Origin: Anaeromyxobacter sp. Fw109-5
GTDB lineage: Bacteria > Myxococcota > Myxococcia > Myxococcales > Anaeromyxobacteraceae
Reading direction: 5' to 3'
Assembly (NCBI RefSeq): GCF_000017505.1
Contig: NC_009675.1
Location: 930,001-994,000, forward strand
DNA: 64,000 nucleotides
Position 1 is the first letter of the stretch. Each line of letters opens with the position of its first letter. Under the pieces are notes generated by a model. The model did not search any database, was not told the origin of the DNA, and was given only the letters and a program-made list of their open reading frames with translations. The translations under genes were made by a program, and so were the position numbers. Positions 18,668 through 36,187 of the stretch are shown one piece after another.

Positions 18668-20959
<2,292 letters not shown>

Positions 20960-20961
20960 GC

Positions 20962-21288
20962 CTACTCCGGCTCGACCGTCACGAGGAGCGGGTACTCCGC
21001 CTCGCGCGCGAGCGCCATCGTCTTCTCCGCCTTCGTCTCGGCGATCTCGAAGGGATAGATACCGGCCAGGCCGACCCCGTGCATGTGAACGTGCAGCATG
21101 ATCCGGTGCGCGCTCTCGGGATCGTGGTGGAAGACCGTCACGAGCACCCAGTCCACGAACTCCTGGGTGGTGTAGTCGTCGTTGTGCAGCAGCACGCGGA
21201 ACAGCGACGGCCGCTTCGTCTCCTTCTCCGCCTTCGTCCGGGGGACGACGACGTCCGTGTCGCCCCCGGGGCGGGACCGCTCTGCCAT
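20962..21288 (-). CDS. clpS: ClpS adaptor for N-end-rule substrates
   Basis: 108 residues with the ClpS core signature LHNDDYTTQEFVDWVL, where Asn-Asp-Asp forms the N-degron pocket, and HVHMHGVGLAGIYPFEIAET. It delivers proteins with N-terminal Leu, Phe, Trp or Tyr to ClpAP. The N-terminal 25 residues are a flexible charged tail (VVPRTKAEKETKRPS) needed in the family for ClpA engagement. It sits 2 bp before clpA on the same strand, with aat upstream. Confidence 0.96.
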   Translation of the reverse strand: MAERSRPGGDTDVVVPRTKAEKETKRPSLFRVLLHNDDYTTQEFVDWVLVTVFHHDPESAHRIMLHVHMHGVGLAGIYPFEIAETKAEKTMALAREAEYPLLVTVEPE

Positions 21289-21536
21289 GGGCTCACATTC
21301 TAAGCGTACGCTCTCGACCCCGCGCACGCCGCCCTCCGCCGCCGGGACGCGTCGCGGTGTCGCCGTCCGGCCTGCGCCCGCGGGGCGCGCATGCCCCCTG
21401 GCGGGGCCGGTCCTGCGCGGTTCGCCCGCGGCCGTGGCCCGGACCGGCGAGGCAGCGCCCGGTCGTCCGGGAGCTGGCGCGGCGGCCCTCCGTACGCCGG
21501 CGACGGCGGCGCGCTGCTCGCGGGCGGGCATGGCCA

Positions 21537-22244
21537 TCAGGCGCCGGCCGGACGATCGCCGGCGTCGAGATCCCAGCGGCCGCGCAGCGTCGGCCGGTCG
21601 AGGGCGCGCCCCAGCCGCGCGAGGAACTCGGCGCGCGGGATCTCGCGCGCGCCGAAGCGCGCGAGGTGCTCGGTGCGGACCTGGCAGTCGATGAGCCGGA
21701 CGTCCCAGCGCGCGAGCCACTCGACGGAGCGGACGAAGGCGACCTTCGAGGCGTCGGGGCGATCGGCGAACATCGACTCGCCGAAGAACGCCCCCCCGAG
21801 CGAGACCCCGTAGAGGCCGCCGGCGAGCGCCTCGCCCTCCCACGCCTCGAAGGAGTGGGCGAAGCCGAGCCGGTGCAGCCGCACGTAGGCGTCGATCATC
21901 TCCGGCACGATCCAGGTGCCGTCCTGGCCCGGTCGCGCGCGGCCCGCGCAGCGCCGGACGACGTCCTCGAACGCGCGGTCCGCCGTGACGCGGTACCGGC
22001 CCCGCCGGATGGTGCGGGCGAGGGAAGCGGACACGTGCAGCCGCTCCGGCTCGAGGACGAGGCGAGGGTCGGGCGACCACCAGAGGATGGGCGTGTCCTC
22101 GCCGTACCAGGGGAAGATGCCCGCCGCGTACGCGGTGAGGAGCCGCTCCGGCGAGAGGTCCCCGCCGACCGCGAGCAGCCCATCGGGCTCCGCCAGGTCG
22201 GGATCCGGGAACGACACCTCGCGCGGGAGCCGGTAGATCGCCAC
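21537..22244 (-). CDS. aat: Leucyl/phenylalanyl-tRNA-protein transferase
   Basis: 235 residues from GTG 22244 (VAIYRLP). Family motifs are clear: LLAVGGDLSPERLLTAY, GIFPWYGEDTPILWWSPDPR, a GESMF motif, and LIDCQVRTEHLARFGA. The enzyme adds Leu or Phe from aminoacyl-tRNA to N-terminal Arg/Lys of proteins, creating the degron that ClpS reads. It lies directly upstream of clpS and clpA on the same strand, with a 248-bp gap (21289-21536) that holds nothing I recognise. The cluster forms a complete bacterial N-degron pathway apart from ClpP. Confidence 0.95.
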   Translation of the reverse strand: MAIYRLPREVSFPDPDLAEPDGLLAVGGDLSPERLLTAYAAGIFPWYGEDTPILWWSPDPRLVLEPERLHVSASLARTIRRGRYRVTADRAFEDVVRRCAGRARPGQDGTWIVPEMIDAYVRLHRLGFAHSFEAWEGEALAGGLYGVSLGGAFFGESMFADRPDASKVAFVRSVEWLARWDVRLIDCQVRTEHLARFGAREIPRAEFLARLGRALDRPTLRGRWDLDAGDRPAGA

Positions 22245-23050: not shown

Positions 23051-23902
23051 CTAGCTGCGGAGCGCGACGAACTCCTTCAGCGCCTCCCGGATGGACGACT
23101 GGACGTGCGCCGGGACCTCCGGGAGCGGGGCGGCCTTGCAGAGCGCGAGCGTCCTCTGGAGCGACTGGCAGCGCGCGTCGCACGCCGGGCAGCGGGCGAG
23201 GTGACGCTCCATGTCGGCGCACAGCGTGGCGCTGATCTCGCCCTCGAGGTGCTTCGAGAACAGCTCGACGATGTCCGGGCAGGGCTCCGCCGCCGGCGTC
23301 GCGGGGGCGGGCGCGGGGGCCTCCGCACCCGGGATCCCGAGGAGGGGCGCCACGGCCGCGCGCACCGCCACCCGCGCGCGATGCAGGCGGCTCTTCACCG
23401 CCTCGACGGACAGTCCCATCACCTCCGCCACCTCGGGCGCGGTGAGCCCCTCGACGTCCCGCAGGACGAGCACCTCGCGGTACATGGGATCGAGGGAGCC
23501 GATGGCCTGCTCGAGCGCGACCTCGATCTGGCGACCGGCGAGCGCGTCGTCGGGCGGTCGACCGGGGTCGACGATCTGCAGCGCCGCCTCTCCCGGCTCG
23601 CGCGCGTCGAGCGACTCCTCCTGCTCCGGGGCGAACTTGGAGCGCCGCCGCTTCTTGATGCAGAAGCTCCGCGCGATCGTGTAGAGCCACGTCGACACGG
23701 AGGAGGCGCCGCGGAAGTCTTTCACGTTCCGTGCGACCGCCAGCAGGGTCTCCTGCAAAATATCCTTTGCGTCCTCCTCGTCACGGCACATCTTCAGGCC
23801 GAAGCGGTACACGCTCCGTTGATGCCGTGCCAGGAGCGCCTCCAGCGCCCGCCGGTCGCCCGCGCGGGCGCGTTCGAGGAGCTCGGTGTCGTGGGCGTCC
23901 AT
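23051..23902 (-). CDS. ECF sigma factor with C-terminal cysteine-rich zinc-finger (anti-sigma-like) tail
   Basis: 283 residues from ATG 23902; a GTG at 23944 is possible. Sigma-70 region 2 is at about 8-85 (EDAKDILQETLLAVARNVKDF, STWLYTIARSFCIKKRR). Region 4 is at about 130-190 (LDPMYREVLVLRDVEGLTAPEVAEVMGLS, VKSRLHRAR, residues abridged). An Ala/Pro linker leads to about 75 C-terminal residues with six cysteines, including a zf-HC2/ZAS-type HLARCPACDARC preceded by CPDIVELFSKHLEGE. ZAS domains normally belong to separate anti-sigma proteins; here it is in cis. The layout recalls the metal-sensing CorE sigma factors of Myxococcus, but no CXC motif is present. It is divergent from the respiratory operon, which is a plausible target. 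Confidence 0.88.
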   Translation of the reverse strand: MDAHDTELLERARAGDRRALEALLARHQRSVYRFGLKMCRDEEDAKDILQETLLAVARNVKDFRGASSVSTWLYTIARSFCIKKRRRSKFAPEQEESLDAREPGEAALQIVDPGRPPDDALAGRQIEVALEQAIGSLDPMYREVLVLRDVEGLTAPEVAEVMGLSVEAVKSRLHRARVAVRAAVAPLLGIPGAEAPAPAPATPAAEPCPDIVELFSKHLEGEISATLCADMERHLARCPACDARCQSLQRTLALCKAAPLPEVPAHVQSSIREALKEFVALRS

Positions 23903-24194
23903 GTGGGGTGGGTCGTAACCCGGAGCCGTCGATGGAACAAGCACCGCGTCGCCGCCGCGACCGTCCGCGCCTCGCGCGCCCAGCGCGCCTCATGCGCGTG
24001 ACCGACGACCGTTACGACCGCCCGACCGCGCATGGACGGGGACGCCGGGTCACGCGCGGGCAGTCCGCCGAGCAAGAACCCGAGCCCCTCGCCCCTTCCG
24101 AGACCTTCCGTCGATCCTTGATCCAAGACAATTTACGCCCCGACGCGGGCCCGGCAGCACCTGCACGCCGTCCACGGGGGCCGCGCAAACAGCG
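23903..24194. other. Divergent promoter region, sigma factor gene / respiratory operon
   Basis: About 290 bp between the sigma start and actA. It is slightly less GC-rich near 24110-24145, with TTGATC at 24118-24123 followed by AAGACAATTT, but no convincing -10 element can be fixed. The actA ATG lacks a strong ribosome site. Promoters for both directions must lie here. Confidence 0.4.
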
Positions 24195-24845
24195 ATGAGC
24201 GCACTCTTCTCTCCCAGATCCAACGGCATCTTCCGTCTCGTCATCGCGATCGTCGTGGCCGGCGCCGCCGGGACGGTGGGGGCGCTGATGATCTTCGCCC
24301 GCATCCCGGCCGGCACGGGCCAGGCGAAGCAGGTCGGCCAACCGGTGCAGTTCGACCACCGCCACCACGTGCAGGACGACCTCATCGACTGCCGCTACTG
24401 CCACACCACGGTCGAGCGGGCGGCGAGCGCCGGGATCCCGCCCACCGAGCTCTGCCTGAACTGCCACTCGCAGGTCTGGAACAAGAGCCCGCTCCTCGAC
24501 CTGGTCCGGGCGAGCTGGTTCGCGAACAAGCCCATCGAGTGGGTGCGCGTCCACCGCGTGCCGGACTTCGTCTACTTCAACCACGCCATCCACGTGAACA
24601 AGGGCGTCGGCTGCGTCGAGTGCCACGGGCGGGTCGATCTGATGCCGGCGATCGAGCAGGTCGCCCCGCTCACGATGGGCTGGTGCCTCGACTGTCACCG
24701 CGACCCTTACCCGCGTCTCCGCCCGCTCGAGGAGATCACGAACATGACCTGGGAACCCGAGGGCGACCGCGTCGCGCTCGGTAAGCAGCTGGCGAAGAAG
24801 TACGACGTGAAACCCCGGACGAGCTGCTACACATGCCATCGCTAG
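24195..24845 (+). CDS. actA: Alternative complex III pentaheme cytochrome c subunit ActA
   Basis: 216 residues with one N-terminal membrane anchor (about 13-35; [20 protein letters not shown]) and a periplasmic domain containing five CXXCH haem sites: CRYCH, CLNCH, CVECH, CLDCH and CYTCH. This matches the pentaheme ActA subunit, which passes electrons from the quinol-oxidising complex to the monohaem ActE or an outside acceptor. His residues in FDHRHH and FNHAIH are likely axial ligands. It is the first gene of a tight operon; its 3' end overlaps actB by 13 bp. Confidence 0.93.
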
Positions 24846-27800
24846 GCCTCCCCATCTACGGTCAGAAGACGGCGCTCGAGACGCGCCGCTGGAAGAGCAT
24901 CGAGGAGCTCGAGGGGCGCGGGGAGGCCGAGGCCGGGGAGTTCCCGGAGGGCGCCGCCGAGACGCCCGACGGGTTCTCTCGCCGCGGCTTCCTCCAGATC
25001 CTGGGCGCCTCCGTGGCGCTCGCGGGCCTCCAGGCCTGCAAGCCGCCCCGCGAGAAGCTCGTACCCTACGTGCGCGGGCCGGCCGGGGTGACGCCCAGCG
25101 TCCCCGTCGCCTACGCGACGGCCGCGAGCGAGGAGGGCTACGCCGTCGGCCTCGTCGTCCAGGCCTTCGAGGGCCGGCCGGTGAAGATCGAGGGCAACAA
25201 GCTCCACCGCGCGAGCCTGGGGGGAACGGACGCCATCCGGCAGGGGCTCGTGCTCGAGCTGTACGACCCGGCGCGCCTGCGCGGCTTCACGAAGCAGGGG
25301 CGCGCGCTCGCGTGGTCGGCGCTGCTGCAGGAGATCGCGGCGCTCGGGCGCGAGCACGACAAGGACGGCGGGGCCCGGCTGAGGTTCCTCGTGGCGCCGA
25401 CCAGCTCGCCGACGCTGGGAGACCTGCGCCGGCGGCTCCTGGAGCGGTTCCCGAAGGCGCGGTTCGTGGCGTGGTCGCCCGCCGCCGGCGGCGCGGAGCG
25501 CGGCGGCGCCGAGATCGCCTTCGGCCGCCCGCTCGACGCGACGTACGAGGTCGCCAAGGCGGACGTGATCCTCTCGCTCGACTCGGACTTCCTCGCCACC
25601 GAGGGCGAGCACCTGCGCCACGCGCGCGAGTTCGCGTCGCGGCGCGAGGGCGAGCGGATGAACCGCCTCTACGTGGCGGAGCCGCGCCACTCGGTGACCG
25701 GCGGCATGGCGGATCACCGGCTGCGCATGCGCGGCGCCGAGGTCGGCGCGTTCGCGCGCGCGGTGGCGGCGGAGCTCGCCGGGCAGGGGCTCGCGGCGCT
25801 GAAGGCGCTCGGGGCGCCCGCCGCCGGCCCGCACGCGAAGGCGGCGCGGGCGATCGCGAAGGACCTCGCCCGCGCCAGGGGCCGGTCCCTCGTCGTCGCC
25901 GGCGCGCGGCAGCCGCCCGCGGTGCACGCGCTCGCCGCCGCCATGAACGAGGCGCTCGGCAACGCCGGCGCGACGGTGCAGTGGCGCGCGCCGGTGCTGC
26001 TCGACGCGCAGGTCGGCCCCGCGCCGCTCGCGGAGCTCGCCGGCGAGCTCCAGGCCGGCAAGGTCGACACGCTCGTCGTCACCGCCTGGAACCCGCTCTA
26101 CACCGCCCCCGCGGACCTCGACCTGCGCGCCGCGTTCGGCAAGGCGAAGAACACCCTCGTCCTCGCGCTGCGGGACGACGAGACCGTGCGCGCGGCGAGC
26201 TGGAAGCTGGCGGCGAGCCACCCGCTGGAGTCGTGGGGAGACCTCCGCGCCCGCGACGGCAGCGTCTCCATCGTGCAGCCGCTCATCACCCCGCTGCACG
26301 AGAGCGCCACCGAGCTCGAGCTGCTCGCCGCGTTCGTCGGGGAGGGCGACCGCGGCGCCTGGCGCCTCGTGCGCGACGGCTGGCGCGTCCGCTCCGGCGC
26401 GCCGCCCGCGCCGCTGCCGCTCTCCGGGCCGGCCGCGGCGGCGAACCCGGCGGACACGAACCGCCCGCGCCCCCCCGATCCGTACGACCGGACCTGGGAG
26501 GAGTGGCTCGCGGCGGGCCTGCTCACCGAGAGCGCCGGCCAGCCCGAGCAGGCGTCGGTCGACGGGGGCCGCGTGGCCGAGGCGCTCGGGAAGCTCCCCC
26601 CGCCCGCGGGCGGCATCGAGCTCGGGTTCACCCCCGACTACAAGGTGTGGGACGGCCGGCACCTCGAGAACGCCTGGCTCCAGGAGCTGCCGGACCCGAT
26701 CACCAAGCTCACCTGGGAGAACGCCGCGCACCTCTCCCCGGCCACCGCGCAGCGGCTCGGCCTCTCCTCCGGCGACCTCGTGGAGCTCTCCCGCGGCGGC
26801 CGCAGCGTGGTCGCGCCGGTGCTGGTCGTCCCGGGCCACGCCGACGAGGCGGTCACCGTCGCCCTCGGGTACGGCCAGCGGGCCGCCGGCCCGGTGGGCC
26901 ACGGCGCCGGCTTCGACGCCTACGCGCTCCGCACGAGCGACGCGACCTGGTTCGCCGGCGGCGCGGAGCTGAAGAAGACGGGCAAGCGGACGGATCTCGC
27001 CGTCACCCAGGGTCACTTCTCCATGGAGGGGAGGGCGATCGCGCTCGCCCTCGACCTCGGGGAGCTCGACCACGCGAAGCCGGAGCTCGACGAGCACCGC
27101 GGCGAGGTGCCCACCATCCTCCAGCCCGTCGACTACTCCGGCGAGACCTACAAGTGGGGGATGTCGATCGACCTGTCGCGCTGCATCGGCTGCGGCGCGT
27201 GCACCGCGGCGTGCCAGGCGGAGAACAACATCCCGGTGGTCGGCAAGGAGCAGGTGCTCCGCAGCCGCGAGATGCACTGGATCCGCGTGGACCGCTACTT
27301 CGAGGGACCGGCGGACGACCCCAGGTCGGTCAGCCAGCCGCTCGCCTGCGTCCACTGCGAGATGGCGCCCTGCGAGTACGTCTGCCCCGTGAACGCCACC
27401 GTCCACTCGGACGAGGGCCTGAACGAGATGGTCTACAACCGCTGCGTCGGCACGCGGTACTGCTCGAACAACTGTCCGTACAAGGTGCGCCGCTTCAACT
27501 ACCTCGATTACCGAGGGGAGATGGCGCCCACGCTGCAGATGCTCATGAACCCGGACGTCACCGTCCGGAGCCGCGGCGTGATGGAGAAGTGCACCTACTG
27601 CACCCAGCGCATCCAGCGCACCCGCATCGACGCCCGCGTGGCCGGCCGGAAGATCGGCCCGGACGAGGTCGTGCCCGCGTGCGGGCAGGCGTGCCCCGCG
27701 GAGGCGATCGTCTTCGGCAACCTCAACGACCCGCAGTCGCGCGTCTCGCGCAAGCACGCGGACGCCCGCCGGTACGACCTGCTGCACGAGCTCGGCACCC

Positions 27801-27856
27801 GGCCGCGCACCGCCTACCTCGTCAAGCTCCGCAACCCGAACCCCGAGCTCGCATGA
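24833..27856 (+). CDS. actB: Alternative complex III iron-sulfur protein ActB (molybdopterin-like plus ferredoxin halves)
   Basis: 1007 residues. A twin-arginine-like N-terminal segment ([21 protein letters not shown], abridged) starts near residue 48. The first two thirds resemble the molybdopterin oxidoreductase fold; known ActB lacks the cofactor. The last third (about 765-985) is a four-cluster ferredoxin domain with [30 protein letters not shown] and a CTYC...C...CPAEAIVFG set. It carries electrons within the complex toward cytochrome subunits. The start ATG 24833 lies inside actA; the stop overlaps the actC start (ATGA). Confidence 0.94.
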
Positions 27857-29301
27857 GCACCGCCCAGAAGACGCTCGAAGAAGCCCACGCGCTCGAGGGT
27901 GCGCCGGTCCTCGTGGGCCGCCCCGACGATCGCGCCCTCACCGAGAGCCTGCTCGCGCCGGTCCTCGAGCCGACGCGCAAGGGCTTCGTCGTCCTGCTCG
28001 TCGCGCTGCTCGGCGGGGTGGGCTTCTGGCTCGTCTCGCTGGGGACGACCCTGTTCGTGGGCATCGGCGCCTGGGGCAACAACATCCCGGTCGCCTGGGC
28101 CTTCGACATCACCAACTTCGTCTGGTGGATCGGCATCGGCCACGCCGGCACGCTCATCAGCGCGATCCTCCTGCTCTTCCAGCAGCGGTGGCGCACCTCC
28201 ATCAACCGCTTCGCGGAGGCGATGACGCTCTTCGCGGTGGCGATGGCGGGCCTCTACCCCATCATCCACCTCGGCCGCCCCTGGCTGTTCTGGTGGCTCA
28301 TCCCGTACCCCTCGACGAACCAGATCTGGCCGAACTTCAAGAGCGCGCTCCCCTGGGACGTGTTCGCCATCTCGACCTACGGCACGGTCTCCTTCCTGTT
28401 CTGGTACCTCGGGCTCATCCCGGACCTCGCCACCCTGCGCGACGCCGCCAAGAGCCGCACCCGCCGGATCGTGTACGGGATCATGAGCTTCGGCTGGCGC
28501 GGGTCGGCGCGCCACTGGCAGCACTACCGCGTCGGCTACCTGCTCCTCGCCGGCCTGTCCACGCCGCTCGTCGTCTCCGTCCACACCATCGTCTCCTTCG
28601 ACTTCGCCATCTCGCAGCTGCCCGGCTGGCACACGACGATCTTCCCGCCGTACTTCGTGGCGGGCGCGATCTTCAGCGGGTTCGCGATGGTGATCACGCT
28701 GATGATCCCGGCGCGCCGAGTGCTCGGCTTCAAGCACGTCGTCACCGAGCGTCACCTCGACAACATGGCGAAGGTGATCCTCGCGACCGGGCTGATGGTC
28801 AGCTACGGCTACGCGATGGAGCACTTCATGGCCTGGTACTCCGGGTCTGGGTACGAGGCCTTCGCGTTCCTGAACCGCTGGACCGGGCCCTACGCGCCCA
28901 TCTGGTACATGCAGCTCGTCTGCAACGTGCTCGCGCCCCAGCTCTTCTGGTTCCCGTCGATGCGGCGCAGCGAGGTCGCGCTGTTCGTCGTCGCCATCCT
29001 GGTGAACGTCGGCATGTGGGCGGAGCGGTTCGTCATCATCGCCGTGTCCCTCACCCGCGACTTCGTCCCGTCCTCCTGGGCCATGTACGTGCCGACCTGG
29101 GTCGACTGGGGCCTGCTCTTCGGCTCCATGGCGACCTTCGGCCTCCTGTTCCTGCTCTTCCTCAGGTTCCTGCCCGCCATCCCGATCTTCGAGGTGAAGG
29201 AGCTCCGGCGCGAGCTCGAGCACCACGGGCCGGGCGTGCACATCCAGTCGCCGGCGGACGCCCCCGGCGCGCACGTCGAGGACCCGGAGGAGGTGCCATG
29301 A
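27853..29301 (+). CDS. actC: Alternative complex III membrane subunit ActC (NrfD/PsrC-like)
   Basis: 482 residues with about ten hydrophobic segments (for example 50-73, 82-104, 130-150, 190-212, 310-330, 380-400), the NrfD/PsrC-family fold that binds quinol at the periplasmic side. Pairing with a second NrfD-like subunit (ActF) further along is diagnostic of the complex. The short cytoplasmic N-terminus and the charged C-terminal tail ([13 protein letters not shown]) match known ActC proteins. The start is ATG 27853, overlapping the actB stop; the stop overlaps the actD start. Confidence 0.93.
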
Positions 29302-29825
29302 GGGCCTACGTCCTCGGCGAGTTCGAGCGCGAGCACGCGCTCCTCGACGCGGCGCGGACGCTGCGCGCGCGCGGCGAGGCGAGGCTCGACATCCACTCCC
29401 CTTACCCGCTCCACGGCACCGACGAGGCGCTCGGGCTGAAGCGCTCCACCGTCCCGCTCGTGGCGCTGATCGCCGGCGTGACGGGGGCGGCCACCGGCTA
29501 CTTCATCCAGTGGTACATGGTCGCGTTCGACTGGCCCATCAACGTCGGCAACCGCCCCCCGCACAGCGCGCCGGCCTTCATCCCGGTGACCTTCGAGCTC
29601 GGCGTGCTGTTCGCCGCGCTCGCCATCTTCTTCGGGCTGCTCGGCGGCTACTTCGGCTTCCCGCGCACGCACCACCCGGTCTTCGAGGTGGAGGCGTTCC
29701 GCTCGGCGAGCATCGACGCGCTGTGGCTCTCGGCCGAGGTGGACGGCAAGGACGCCGAGCCGCTCGCCGAGGAGCTGCGGCGGCTGGGCGCGCGCCACGT
29801 GTCCATCGTCCCGGAGGCGAAGTGA
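29298..29825 (+). CDS. actD: Alternative complex III subunit ActD (DUF3341)
   Basis: 175 residues, full length for DUF3341. A cytoplasmic N-terminal domain (1-55; [20 protein letters not shown]) is followed by two membrane helices (about 57-80 and 100-122) separated by the family signature [15 protein letters not shown], then a small C-terminal domain with [10 protein letters not shown]. ActD is a structural subunit without cofactors. ATG 29298 overlaps the actC stop; actE begins 2 bp after its stop. Confidence 0.92.
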
Positions 29826-29826
29826 G

Positions 29827-30399
29827 ATGAAGAGGATCCGCCTCGCCGCCCCGCTGCTGCTCCTCCTCGCCGCCTGCCCGCGGCTCGATCCGATGTGGGA
29901 TCAGCCCAAGGTGAAGGCCTACCAGGCCAGCCCGCACTATCCGGACGGCCTGGCGATGCGCGCGCCGCCCGCCGGCACGGTGCCGCACCGCCCGCCCGTG
30001 CAGCCCGCCCTCGCGACGGGGCGCGGGCCGGACGGCGTGCCGCTGGCGGTGTCGCCGCTGCCGCCGTCCGCCGAGGTCCTGGCGCGCGGGCGCGCGAAGT
30101 TCGACGTCCACTGCGCCGTCTGCCACGGGGTCCTGGGCGACGGCGAGAGCCAGCTCGCGCTCAACATGTCGCTCCGCAAGCCGCCGTCGCTGCACGCCTA
30201 CCGCGAGGTGGCGGACGGCTACATCTACCAGGTGATCACCGAGGGGTTCGGCCTCATGCCGTCGTACGCGGCGGAGCTGACGGTGCAGGAGCGGTGGGCG
30301 GTGGTCGCCTACGTGCGCGCGCTGCAGCTCTCGCAGAACGCCAGGCTGGAGCAGCTCCCGCCGGAGGCGCGCGAGCGCCTCGACCAGGAGACGCGATGA
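29827..30399 (+). CDS. actE: Alternative complex III monohaem cytochrome c ActE
   Basis: 190 residues. A lipoprotein-type signal (LLLLAAC) puts a lipidated Cys near residue 18 at the periplasmic face. One haem-binding CAVCH at about residue 98 is followed by a Met ligand candidate in GFGLMPSYA. The sequence YIYQVITEGFGLMPSY is typical of the class I cytochromes in these operons. It probably hands electrons from ActA to the caa3 oxidase encoded downstream. The stop overlaps the actF start (ATGA). Confidence 0.92.
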   Translation: MKRIRLAAPLLLLLAACPRLDPMWDQPKVKAYQASPHYPDGLAMRAPPAGTVPHRPPVQPALATGRGPDGVPLAVSPLPPSAEVLARGRAKFDVHCAVCHGVLGDGESQLALNMSLRKPPSLHAYREVADGYIYQVITEGFGLMPSYAAELTVQERWAVVAYVRALQLSQNARLEQLPPEARERLDQETR

Positions 30400-31580
30400 C
30401 GCTCACCCCGTACCAGGGAGGCAGGCGGCTCATGGTCCCCGCGCTCGGCGCCGCGGTCGTCGGCCTGGGCCTCACCGGCGTCGGCGCCATCTTCGATCCG
30501 AAGCGGGCGCTGTTCGCCTACCTCGTCGCGTTCGTCTACTGGGTCGGCATCGCGCTCGGGGCGCTCATCCTGCTCGGCGCCTTCCACGCCTCGAACGCGC
30601 GCTGGCCGGTGGTGCTGCGCCGCTTCGTCGAGACCGTCCCCGCCACGCTGCCGCTGTTCGTGCTGCTGTTCGTGCCGATCGCGCTCGGGATGCGGCACCT
30701 CTTCGTGTGGGTGGCGCCGCCGGAGGGGCTCGATCCGGTGATGGCGCACGCCATCCACCACAAGCACCCGTACCTCAACAGCGGCTTCTTCCTCGCCCGG
30801 GCGGCGATCTACTTCCTCTTCTGGATCGTGGTCGCGCACCTGCTGCGGAGCTGGTCGCTCCGCCAGGACTCCGCCGGCGGCGTGACGCTCACGGTGTGGC
30901 AGCGCCGGCTGGGCGCGGGCTCCCTCCCGTTCCTCGCCCTCACGCTGTCGTTCGCGTCGTTCGACTGGATGATGTCGCTCGACCCGCGCTTCTTCTCGAC
31001 CATCTTCGGCGTCTACTGGTTCGCGGGCAGCTTCATGGCCGCCTTCGCGGTCATCATCATCGCGAGCACCCTCACGCGCGGCGATCCCGCCGCGTTCGGC
31101 CACCACATGAACGCCGAGCACTTCCACTCGCTCGGGAAGTTCCTCCTCGCCTTCACGGCGTTCTGGGCCTACGTGGCCTTCTCGCAGTTCATGCTCATCT
31201 GGATCGCGAACGTGCCGGAGGAGGTGCCCTGGTACATCCTCCGCATCGACGGCGGGTGGAGGTGGGTGGGCGCGTTCCTGGCCGTGTTCCACTTCTTCGT
31301 CCCGTTCTTCCTGCTCCTCTCGCGCGACCTGAAGCGCAGCCCGCGGGCGCTCTCTCGCGTCGCGGCCTGGATGCTCCTCGTGCACTGGGTGGATCTCTAC
31401 TGGCTCGTCATGCCGCACCTCCACCCGCAAGGCCCGCGGCCCTCGCTCTGGGACCTGACGGCGTTCGTGGGCGTGGGCGGCGCGGCCATCGCCTTCGGGA
31501 TCTTCCGCATGCGCGGCACCCTCACGGTGCCGGTGCAGGATCCCTACCTCCAGGACTCGCTGAGGTACCTCCCGCAATGA
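30396..31580 (+). CDS. actF: Alternative complex III membrane subunit ActF
   Basis: 394 residues with about ten hydrophobic segments. It is the second, more divergent NrfD-like subunit, often annotated quinol:cytochrome c oxidoreductase quinone-binding subunit 2. Signatures include LSFASFDWMMSLDPRFFSTIFG and the C-terminal VQDPYLQDSLRYLP. It is thought to help proton movement but not to bind the Fe-S partner directly. It overlaps actE and the next gene by 4 bp each. Confidence 0.92.
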   Translation: MTLTPYQGGRRLMVPALGAAVVGLGLTGVGAIFDPKRALFAYLVAFVYWVGIALGALILLGAFHASNARWPVVLRRFVETVPATLPLFVLLFVPIALGMRHLFVWVAPPEGLDPVMAHAIHHKHPYLNSGFFLARAAIYFLFWIVVAHLLRSWSLRQDSAGGVTLTVWQRRLGAGSLPFLALTLSFASFDWMMSLDPRFFSTIFGVYWFAGSFMAAFAVIIIASTLTRGDPAAFGHHMNAEHFHSLGKFLLAFTAFWAYVAFSQFMLIWIANVPEEVPWYILRIDGGWRWVGAFLAVFHFFVPFFLLLSRDLKRSPRALSRVAAWMLLVHWVDLYWLVMPHLHPQGPRPSLWDLTAFVGVGGAAIAFGIFRMRGTLTVPVQDPYLQDSLRYLPQ

Positions 31581-32020
31581 ACCCGCACACCGATCCCGTG
31601 CACGGCGCGCCGCACGCCGCGGGCCACGGCCACGACGTCCGGTCCGAGGAGGATCGGATCTCGAGCGGCAAGGTCGTGTCCGTCGGCGTCGCGTCGCTGG
31701 TGGTGTTCTTCCTCGCCTCCCTGGCCGCCGTGGGCTACCTGCGCCTGCGGCAGAGCGAGCACCCGAAGGCCCCGGTGCCGGCGGAGCTCGGCCAGTCGAA
31801 GATCGCGATGGTCGAGCAGGACGTGTTCGACCTGGCGGTGCGCGGGGCGCGCGACCGCGCCCGCAAGCGGGAGCGGCTCGGCTCGTACGGCTGGGTGGAT
31901 CGCGAGGCGGGCGTGGCGCACATGCCCATCGAGCGGGCGATGGACCTGGTCGCCAAGGGCGTCCGGCCGCCGGCGGCGCCGCGGGGCGCCGAGGCGGCGC
32001 CGCCAGGGGCGCAGCCATGA
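31577..32020 (+). CDS. Small membrane protein at the complex III / oxidase junction (ActG position)
   Basis: 147 residues: a His-rich cytoplasmic start (HTDPVHGAPHAAGHGH), one membrane helix (about 32-55; VSVGVASLVVFFLASLAAVGY) and a periplasmic tail. The tail has the conserved string YGWVDREAGVAHMPIERAM, which recurs in small proteins beside cytochrome oxidase operons. It holds the position of the small ActG subunit, but I am unsure of homology to structurally defined ActG. The start and stop overlap both neighbours by 4 bp. Confidence 0.75.
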   Translation: MNPHTDPVHGAPHAAGHGHDVRSEEDRISSGKVVSVGVASLVVFFLASLAAVGYLRLRQSEHPKAPVPAELGQSKIAMVEQDVFDLAVRGARDRARKRERLGSYGWVDREAGVAHMPIERAMDLVAKGVRPPAAPRGAEAAPPGAQP

Positions 32021-32868
32021 CGCGCCGCCTGGCCGCCCTCGCCGCGCTCCTCGCGCTCGCCGGGCCGCGCCCGGCCGCGGCGCAGTTCTGGACGCGCGAG
32101 CCGCCGAAGGGCCCGCCCACCGATCAGCCGCCGGCGGTGCTGCAGGACGTGGGGGTCGAGGAGCGGCTCGGCAACCGCGTGCCGCTCGAGCTCACCTTCA
32201 CGGACTGGACGGGCCGTCCGTTCCGGCTCGGCGACGCCTTCGACGGCCACAAGCCGGTGGTGCTCACCCTCGTCTACTACGACTGCCCCATGCTCTGCGG
32301 CCTCATCCTCTCCGGCATGGCGAAGGCCATGCGCGAGAACGGCCTCGCGCTGGGCCGGGACTACGCCGCGGTGACCGTCTCGTTCGATCCGGAGGAGAAG
32401 CCGGCGCAGGCGGCGGAGCGCCGCCGCGGCTACCTCCAGTCGCTCGGCCGCGAGGACGAGGGACGCGAGTGGCCGTTCCTCGTGGGCACGGAGCAGGCCT
32501 CCCGCCAGCTCGCCGACGCGGTGGGCTTCCGCTACGCGTACGACCCGGCCACCAAGGAGTGGGCGCACATCGCGGCGATCTTCGTGCTCACGCCGGACGG
32601 TACGGTGTCGCGCTACCTCTACGGCATCGAGTATCCGCCGAAGGACTTCCGGCTCTCGGTCGTCGAGGCCGCGGACGGCAAGGTCGGCACCAGCTTCGAC
32701 AAGTTCCTCCTCACCTGTTACCGCTACGACCCCGCGTCCCGGAAGTACGAGCCGTACGCGTGGGGCTTCGTGCGCGCCGGGGGCCTCGCGGTGCTCCTCG
32801 CGCTCTCGAGCCTCATCGGCGGGCTCGTCTGGCGGGAGCGCAGGGGGAAGGCGAGGCGCACGTCATGA
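32017..32868 (+). CDS. SCO1/SenC/PrrC copper chaperone for cytochrome oxidase
   Basis: 283 residues with an N-terminal signal (LAALAALLALAGPRPAAAQ) and a thioredoxin-fold Sco domain. The copper-binding CXXXC is CPMLC near residue 91, and the distal His is probably in EWAHIAAIF near 189. It delivers copper to the CuA site of subunit II, which is encoded next. Unlike soluble Sco proteins, it has a C-terminal membrane helix (about 249-270; GGLAVLLALSSLIGGLVW). The stop overlaps the coxB start. Confidence 0.93.
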   Translation: MTRRLAALAALLALAGPRPAAAQFWTREPPKGPPTDQPPAVLQDVGVEERLGNRVPLELTFTDWTGRPFRLGDAFDGHKPVVLTLVYYDCPMLCGLILSGMAKAMRENGLALGRDYAAVTVSFDPEEKPAQAAERRRGYLQSLGREDEGREWPFLVGTEQASRQLADAVGFRYAYDPATKEWAHIAAIFVLTPDGTVSRYLYGIEYPPKDFRLSVVEAADGKVGTSFDKFLLTCYRYDPASRKYEPYAWGFVRAGGLAVLLALSSLIGGLVWRERRGKARRTS

Positions 32869-33894
32869 ACGAGCTCCTCCGCAGGCTCCTGTTCCTCCCG
32901 GAGCAGGCATCGGACTACGCCCGGCAGGTCGACGGGCTGCACTACTTCATCATCGCCACGACGATGATCGCGGCGGCGGGGGTGTTCCTCACCGCGATCT
33001 TCTTCTTCGTCCGCTACCGGCGGCGCACGGGCAGCGACGTGACGCCCCACGTCGCGCCGCGCGGGATCCACGAGGCGCTCTTCGTGGGCGTGCCCCTCGC
33101 GCTGTTCCTCGTGTGGTTCGCGATCGGCTTCCCCCAGTACGTGAAGCTCCAGCTGCCGCCCAAGGACGCGATGGACGTCTTCGTGCAGGGCAAGAAGTGG
33201 ATGTGGAAGTTCGCCTACGCGGGCGGCCCGAGCTCGATCGACACGCTGCGGGTGCCGGCGGGCCGCCCGGTGCGGCTGCTCATCACCTCGCGAGACGTCA
33301 TCCACTCGTTCTACGTGCCGGCGCTGCGCGTGAAGATGGACGCGCTGCCCGGGCGCTACACGCAGACCTGGTTCCAGGCCGAGAAGGCCGGCCGCTACGA
33401 GATCTTCTGCACGGAGTACTGCGGGCTCGGCCACTCCGCCATGCTGGGCGAGCTCGTGGTGATGCCGCAGGAGGAGTTCGACGTCTGGATCGCCGAGCAG
33501 CGCCGCGGCGCCGCCGCGGTGGCGCAGGACTCCTCGCCCTCCGGCGAGCGCGTGATGCCGGCGGCGAACATCGCCGAGGAGGGGCGCCGCGTCGCCTCCG
33601 AGCAGGGCTGCCTCAAGTGCCACAGCGTGGACGGCACCCGGCACATCGGGCCGACCTGGGTGGACCTCTACCTCCGCCAGGAGAGGCTGAAGGACGGCAA
33701 GACGATCGTCGCCGACGAGGCGTACCTCACGAAGTCGATGATGGACCCCGCCGCGGAGATCGTGGCCGGGTTCCAGAACGTCATGCCCACCTACCAGGGC
33801 AGGCTGTCGCCCCCCGAGGTGGCGGCGGTCGTCGAGTACATCAAGACCCTCAAGACGCAGGCGGTCCGCTCCGGCCCGTCGGAAGGCCCGGTCT

Positions 33895-33920
<26 letters not shown>
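32865..33920 (+). CDS. coxB: Cytochrome c oxidase subunit II with fused cytochrome c domain (caa3 type)
   Basis: 351 residues. Two N-terminal membrane helices (about 25-47 and 66-86) lead to a cupredoxin CuA domain: His in SRDVIHSFYVP and the cluster CTEYCGLGHSAM near residue 184, providing two Cys, His and Met. A linker leads to a C-terminal class I cytochrome c with CLKCH (about 249) and a distal Met in QNVMPTYQGRL. The fusion defines a caa3-type oxidase that takes electrons directly. The start is ATG 32865. The 3' end overlaps coxA by 26 bp. Confidence 0.96.
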
Positions 33921-35551
<1,631 letters not shown>

Positions 35552-35562
<11 letters not shown>

Positions 35563-36187
35563 CACGACCTACCTCGCGCACCACTTCGAGAGCCTCGACA
35601 AGCAGACGCACGCCGCGCGGCTCGGCATGTGGCTCTTCCTCGCGACCGAGGTGCTGCTGTTCACCGCCCTCTTCGCCGGCTACGGCGTGTACCGCTTCCT
35701 GTACGCGGACGCGTTCCGGGTCGCGAGCCGGGGCCTCGCGACCTGGATCGGCGTGGTGAACACCATCGTGCTGGTGACGAGCTCGTTCACGGTGGCGATG
35801 GGGCTCGACCGCCAGACCCGCGGCGACGGGCGCGGGACGCGGCTGCTGTTCGCCGTCTCGTTCCTGCTCGCGGTCGTGTTCCTCGGCTTCAAGGCGGTGG
35901 AGTACTCGCACCACTTCCACGCCGGGGAGCTGCCGGGGCGCTTCTACACGAGCGAGCACGCGCAGGGGCCGGGCGGGCCCATCTTCTACGCCCTCTACTT
36001 CCTCATCACCGGGCTGCACGCGATCCACGTCGTCATCGGCATGACGGTCCTGGCCATCATCGGCTGGCGCGCCGGCAGCGGCGCCTACACGGCCGAGTAC
36101 CACGTCCCGGTGGAGCTCGCCGGGCTGTACTGGCACCTCGTCGATCTCATCTGGATCTTCGTCTTCCCGCTCATCTACCTCATCTAG
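35552..36187 (+). CDS. coxC: Cytochrome c oxidase subunit III
   Basis: 211 residues with five hydrophobic segments. Signatures include ARLGMWLFLATEVLLFTALF, EYSHHFHAG, FYALYFLITGLHAIHVVIGM and YWHLVDLIWIFVFPLIYLI (abridged). It has no metal centre and stabilises the oxygen-reducing core and its proton pathway. Its first helices correspond to a shorter, five-helix subunit III as in bacterial caa3 enzymes. A GGAGGG site right at its stop serves coxD, 13 bp downstream. Confidence 0.95.

Follow-up and report, generated by a model that had tools for sequence, protein, structure and literature searches.

An extracytoplasmic function sigma factor of Anaeromyxobacter with an RsrA-like zinc-finger tail and candidate targets among sulfur and thiol genes

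The 64,000-nucleotide stretch of Anaeromyxobacter sp. Fw109-5 analysed here (the window; NC_009675.1, positions 930,001 to 994,000 of the forward strand) carries on its minus strand, at 23051..23902, a gene for an extracytoplasmic function (ECF) sigma factor whose C-terminal tail resembles a zinc-binding anti-sigma factor, and which is divergent from a respiratory operon. What does such a protein sense, and which genes does it serve? The original prediction had proposed an anti-sigma-like finger fused in cis, distinct from CorE of Myxococcus, and a metal- or redox-sensing control of the adjacent alternative complex III (ACIII)-Sco-caa3 operon. The fused finger, its difference from CorE and the plausibility of a redox-type signal have held up, but control of the operon has not. 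The tail is read here, with somewhat better than even confidence, as an on-board switch of the RsrA kind that responds to thiol or sulfane-sulfur stress, and its targets are probably sulfur- and thiol-stress genes elsewhere on the chromosome rather than the adjacent respiratory genes.

An anti-sigma-like domain carried in cis

The gene starts with an ATG at 23902 and its open reading frame (ORF) ends at 23051, giving a product of 283 amino acids (aa) that has full-length fused homologues; an alternative GTG start at 23944 gives a longer ORF, but the homologues align from the ATG instead. Sigma region 2 (aa 23-89, 23636..23836; PF04542, Sigma70_r2, 58.3 bits) and region 4 (aa 129-178, 23369..23518; PF08281, Sigma70_r4_2, 61.4 bits) are present, all on the minus strand, and region 3 is absent, as in an ECF sigma factor; TIGR02937 and both Pfam families match above their cut-offs. 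The tail (aa 205-283, 23054..23290) contains exactly six cysteines, C208, C228, C238, C241, C245 and C255, together with H234 in an HxxxCxxC pattern. Pfam and the translation thus agree with the order of domains first proposed, and with the zf-HC2 pattern preceded by an upstream cysteine (C208): PF13490 matches aa 208-241 with 32.1 bits, against a cut-off of 22.2. The motif reads C208-(26)-H234-(4)-C238-(3)-C241 (CHCC, 23180..23281), with C228, C245 and C255 as additional conserved cysteines (23138..23221). Unlike in RsrA-type pairs, a separate zinc-finger ORF is absent, the sigma and the anti-sigma-like domain lying in one ORF. Inspection of the 283-aa translation found no CxC, so that the reported lack of the CorE-type motif is borne out. 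No hydrophobic or transmembrane segment was seen after the zinc finger in the 79-aa tail, which was judged by eye, no predictor being run. The C-terminus lies 42 residues past C241, and the last helix of the model carries charged residues; from its sequence, the fused sigma appears short and soluble.

Conservation of the tail was assessed in a 58-row alignment, derived from 68 loci with a match after identical proteins were removed and six split sigmas set aside. All 58 non-identical fused rows carry C208, C228, H234, C238, C241 and C255 without exception, and 55 of them also carry C245; conservation this close to complete is not a matter of chance. Two cysteines of sigma region 2, C39 (23786-23788) and C81 (23660-23662), are also invariant in 58/58 fused rows, and seem to be kept in several tail-less sigma relatives too. 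At six other loci, a related sigma of about 200 aa is directly followed by a separate protein of 77 to 89 aa with the same cysteine layout. One of these stand-alone anti-sigmas, of 79 aa, aligns with the tail over 69 aa (21/69 identities, E=2e-11) and has the same C-H-C-C-C spacing of 26/4/3/14. The CHCC residues are present in all 61 rows that combine fused tails with seven stand-alone anti-sigmas; C255 is found in most of the latter as well, and C228 and C245 are absent from the three that were inspected. Because the stand-alone homologue aligns and the CHCC residues are kept throughout, the tail is regarded as an anti-sigma domain carried in cis.

Searches against solved chains agree with this assignment. 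With the tail as a single sequence, phmmer finds RsiW (5wuq_C, E=0.00034), and a profile search finds RsiW (E=3.7e-10) and RsrA (E=1.2e-6), the closest chains being anti-sigma factors. AlphaFold models of the tail have four helices. The fold search with the tail alone gives one sensible match, a weak one to RsiW (E=0.52, Z 4.0, root-mean-square deviation 6.2, 69 aligned residues); RsrA and ChrR are not listed, which excludes nothing. By its sequence, the tail is a class-I zinc anti-sigma (ZAS) domain, and inhibition of the sigma factor by it is predicted.

With RsiW of the Bacillus RsiW/SigW system the fused sigma shares the class-I zinc anti-sigma type, RsiW being its best sequence match among solved structures, with a weak fold match. 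RsiW is a separate, membrane-bound protein that is freed by proteolysis, in contrast to the fused tail, in which no membrane segment is apparent by eye. To RsrA of the Streptomyces RsrA/SigR system it is linked by a CHCC motif with identical 26/4/3 spacing, by a cysteine as first ligand, by the profile match and by thiol-related candidate targets. The zinc ligands of RsrA are Cys11, His37, Cys41 and Cys44, and the cysteine in first position makes RsrA a sensor of disulfide stress (PMC4960319). RsrA, however, is a separate protein beside its sigma, and the fused sigma has additional conserved cysteines, C228, C245 and the two of region 2. ECF48, ECF52 and ECF53 (e.g., SCO4117) are also ECF sigmas with a fused zinc-finger anti-sigma domain, but according to PMC8999054 they are actinobacterial and membrane-anchored, with long extensions and a proposed proteolytic activation; the transmembrane helix that follows the finger in ECF52-like membrane fusions was not found here. 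Further fused or cysteine-tailed ECF sigmas are treated in PMC7406223 and PMC8103513. No description of the present fused family or its regulon was found in the open-licence literature, subscription papers and supplements lying outside the search.

A promoter motif shared by sulfur and thiol genes

Outside the window's clade the fused sigma gene often adjoins genes for rhodanese, OsmC, DUF302, thioredoxin, TauE or YeeE/YedE-type proteins (Sulf_transp, DUF6691). A metallo-beta-lactamase-fold gene, read as a persulfide dioxygenase, is also among the neighbours, and several loci have none of these families in view. The upstream regions of these sulfur and thiol genes share an ECF-type promoter, GAATCC-N14/15-GGCTCTCA. 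Across homologue loci totalling 981,081 bases, the degenerate form of this motif has 47 sites, compared with 0-2 in 20 Markov-2 controls (the count excludes six duplicate loci and one stretch of 100 bases). Its placement is that of a promoter: among the 45 sites at loci without ActA, 30 precede a start on the same strand by 150 nt or less (random positions, 6.7%) and none falls inside a called gene (random positions, 74%). At 13 fused-sigma loci outside the order, seven sites occur in 154,416 bases versus 0-1 in 20 controls; one fronts a DUF302-like gene that runs divergently from the sigma (L264) and another lies near a beta-lactamase-fold gene and YeeE (L263). Seven of these 13 loci (L258, L259, L261, L262, L267, L268 and L270) have no motif.

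The motif is also associated with the sigma across genomes. Of 145 genomes of the order, 82 encode a full-length fused sigma, and 62 of these have the strict motif. It also occurs in 7 of the 8 genomes that have a tail-less close relative instead, and in 8 of the 55 that have neither form (Fisher p=7e-13, uncorrected for ancestry). The same contrast stands at 9/9 to 1/7 within genus g19 and at 2/2 to 0/5 within g21.

In the genome of Fw109-5 itself, five motif sites were found, against none for the reversed control pattern. The genes downstream encode an OsmC protein (Pfam, 59 bits), a rhodanese (38.9 bits), a YHS/E1-E2 P-type ATPase, a 292-aa protein without Pfam match and, by visual assignment, a HesB-like product whose reading frame contains a TGA. 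The osmC promoter is at C1:406849 and that of the rhodanese gene at C1:3471717. As the genome holds nine rhodanese and five OsmC matches, the probability that five random genes out of about 4,460 (an estimate) would include two of these 14 is 9e-5. For the 11 genomes of the clade, 67 motif matches were listed and 60 were fetched (G024, with 8, and G033, with 7, were not), and the gene families were assigned by eye except for the proteins checked by Pfam. The 60 sites front 12 rhodaneses, 6 OsmC proteins, 7 thioredoxin-fold proteins, 6 zinc-ribbon proteins (FmdB type), 6 YgaP-type/DUF6132 membrane proteins, 4 HesB-like proteins, 3 metal ATPases, 4 methyltransferases and 3 members of the 292-aa family, leaving 9 with other genes or none.

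Some of the genes under the motif contain an in-frame TGA. In one rhodanese (L120:1570-2000; G000:C1, just after 3471744) it stands where a relative, L197, has a cysteine (CRGTGC), and it recurs in the same rhodanese of two related genomes (L172, L184). The HesB-like ORF, which begins 8-9 nt after the motif, has a conserved in-frame TGA as well (L225:887-1206; L160, L167, L177), at which its relatives read HVGHG-stop-GG. The genome encodes a selenocysteine tRNA (75.4 bits, cut-off 47), and both the rhodanese and the HesB-like protein are probably selenoproteins, judging by these reading frames.

Two other arrangements of the motif were observed. It stands directly upstream of another ECF sigma paralogue at L210 (G029:C27:77715) and at G030:C185:1939, which suggests a possible sigma cascade in some genomes. 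At L161, L168 and L176 it lies beside a DUF302-like gene on the wrong side to drive it, and a downstream gene was not found.

A proposed switch and its alternatives

The proposed model starts from a resting cell in which the CHCC tail, with its thiols reduced and zinc bound, would clamp the sigma domains shut, just as RsrA and RsiW act on their sigmas in trans. Thiol-oxidising or sulfane-sulfur stress would oxidise or persulfidate the zinc-binding thiols, so that zinc leaves, C208 pairs with C238 or C241 and the clamp opens. The opened sigma would then direct RNA polymerase to the promoters described above, serving genes for rhodanese, OsmC, thioredoxin-fold, DUF302, persulfide-dioxygenase-type, YeeE/YedE and YgaP-like proteins. 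Reduction of the thiols could close the lock again, because the lock stays within the same protein, and such a re-closable lock would suit a sigma that is made constitutively and is not autoregulated. Computation establishes the fusion, the invariant CHCC motif, the promoter motif, its association with the fused sigma and the kinds of gene that follow it. Reading of the motif by this sigma, zinc binding, autoinhibition and constitutive expression, like the chemical nature of the signal, are what we infer rather than observe. A precedent for sulfane-sulfur sensing at a zinc site has been published for PerR (PMC9952342).

A broader proposal is more tentative and held at rather less than even confidence: the protein would belong to a phylum-wide ECF class whose members detect sulfane sulfur or persulfides themselves, by means of a zinc-thiolate switch in the same polypeptide, and run a sulfur-detoxification regulon of their own, selenoproteins included. 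If the on-board switch is real, one soluble protein would be sensor, anti-sigma and sigma at once, so that signal, lock and output could be studied in a single purified component, and the Myxococcota would gain a sigma-run response to reactive sulfur. The bacterial sulfide and persulfide regulators BigR, SqrR, CstR and FisR are repressors or activators. As a concrete promoter sequence and a gene list are at hand, the claim is testable at once, and natural tail-less relatives with the same promoter offer ready-made controls for the function of the lock.

Several observations weigh against an on-board thiol switch acting at this motif. The full-length AlphaFold model has a predicted TM-score (pTM) of 0.40 and does not place the tail confidently on the sigma domains, and the docked arrangement it implies was set aside. 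Recognition of the motif by the fused sigma is predicted from their association, and the Fisher value given for that association ignores shared ancestry. The strict motif is missing from 20 of the 82 genomes with the fused sigma and is present in the 8 of 55 with neither form; two of these eight exceptions, G025 and G031, are 74% and 81% complete. Within the window's clade the sigma gene has no motif close by, and the link between the two rests there on relatives. Because tail-less relatives keep the motif adjoining them, some lineages can do without the tail. Finally, one of the five own sites fronts a metal ATPase, which would also fit a metal signal.

It could be argued that the zinc has a structural role, as it does in RsiW, and that the sigma is released by proteolysis, by a partner protein or by a change in its amount. 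The zinc motifs of many class-I anti-sigmas are thought to be structural (PMC7406223), and Aat, ClpS and ClpA genes of the N-degron pathway (18668-22244) follow the sigma gene. This block, however, is confined to the window's clade, whereas the first ligand is a cysteine in 58/58 rows, the feature by which RsrA responds to disulfide stress (PMC4960319); the fused sigma has further invariant cysteines, and the candidate target genes belong to thiol chemistry. A structural role of the zinc is therefore considered unlikely.

No more probable is a tail that senses a metal (copper, zinc, cadmium or iron) in the manner of CorE, CorE2 or OrbS. Metal sensing would be consistent with the YHS/heavy-metal P-type ATPases found at 3 of the 60 clade sites, one of the five own sites included. 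CorE and CorE2 of Myxococcus (ECF238, formerly ECF44) are likewise ECF sigmas with a six-cysteine C-terminal region and no linked anti-sigma. According to PMC8999054 and PMC3107203, however, the cysteine-rich domain of CorE has 38 residues, with invariant C181, C184, C192 and C194 including a CxC and a second CxC in the linker; neither CxC occurs in the fused sigma, and membership in ECF44/ECF238 was rejected on the cysteine pattern. OrbS of Burkholderia shares the idea of an on-board anti-sigma made from C-terminal cysteines, but its short motif, Cx2Cx3Cx5C, its Fe(II) signal and its iron-starvation regulon differ (PMC9023288). The motif of the fused sigma is that of RsrA, its tail is homologous to a stand-alone anti-sigma, and most motif sites front sulfur or thiol genes.

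The divergent respiratory operon, a putative sigma promoter and the history of the fusion

The operon itself (24195..36187, plus strand) is as first described, Pfam identifying a multihaem cytochrome, an Fe-S protein, NrfD, ActD, Sco, COX2, COX1 and COX3. A divergent ActA gene stands beside the sigma at 16 of the 68 loci, that is, in 12 species besides the window (some doubled), all of family f1. Outside that clade ACIII genes adjoin the sigma only at L085, 2.6 kb downstream on the same strand. The intergenic region (23903..24194), which the original prediction had named as the place to look for a promoter driven by the sigma, was scanned with a matrix built from 47 sites that lie outside the window's clade. 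No sulfur-gene-type site was found: the best score is -9.8, a value equalled or exceeded by 89% of 300 random 292-nt pieces of the window, while the best score of the whole window is 8.6 and the five own-genome sites reach 13.9 to 28.2. The 12 related ActA intergenic regions have no such promoter either, all scoring at most 1.4, and the degenerate motif has no site in the 64-kb window. A promoter of a different type at ActA is conceivable. Control of the operon by the sigma according to metal or redox state, although suggested by a close divergent adjacency kept in 13 species of the family (window counted) and by a block ahead of ActA that the nearest relatives conserve (24090-24170, GAGACC...TTTACGCCCC, unlike the sulfur-gene motif), is very improbable, since the adjacency is missing from all other fused-sigma clades, the intergenic region scores no better than random pieces and the five own-genome sites are located elsewhere.

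For the sigma gene, a putative promoter, TTGTTC-N17-TACGAC (23912..23940, minus strand), was picked by eye 9 nt before the ATG, which would make the transcript near-leaderless. Most of the clade has a TTG-N17-TA pattern, also picked by eye, about equally far from the start, but it is weak, and a consensus scan found no sigma-70-type promoter upstream of the gene (0 matches). Autoregulation was rejected, as in the window's clade no motif site precedes the sigma gene.

A sigma-domain tree of 192 columns, whose bootstrap had not fully settled, places the split sigma/anti-sigma pairs in one supported clade. The tail-less sigmas L218 and L219, with no motif nearby, sit on a very long branch, which makes their placement unsure. 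The tail-less L211, L215, L216, L217 and L221, from Myxococcus-like genomes, branch from within the fused group at more than one point, and this suggests loss of the tail in these relatives. L221 has no motif nearby, and at L211-L217 the motif lies beside YeeE or rhodanese genes.
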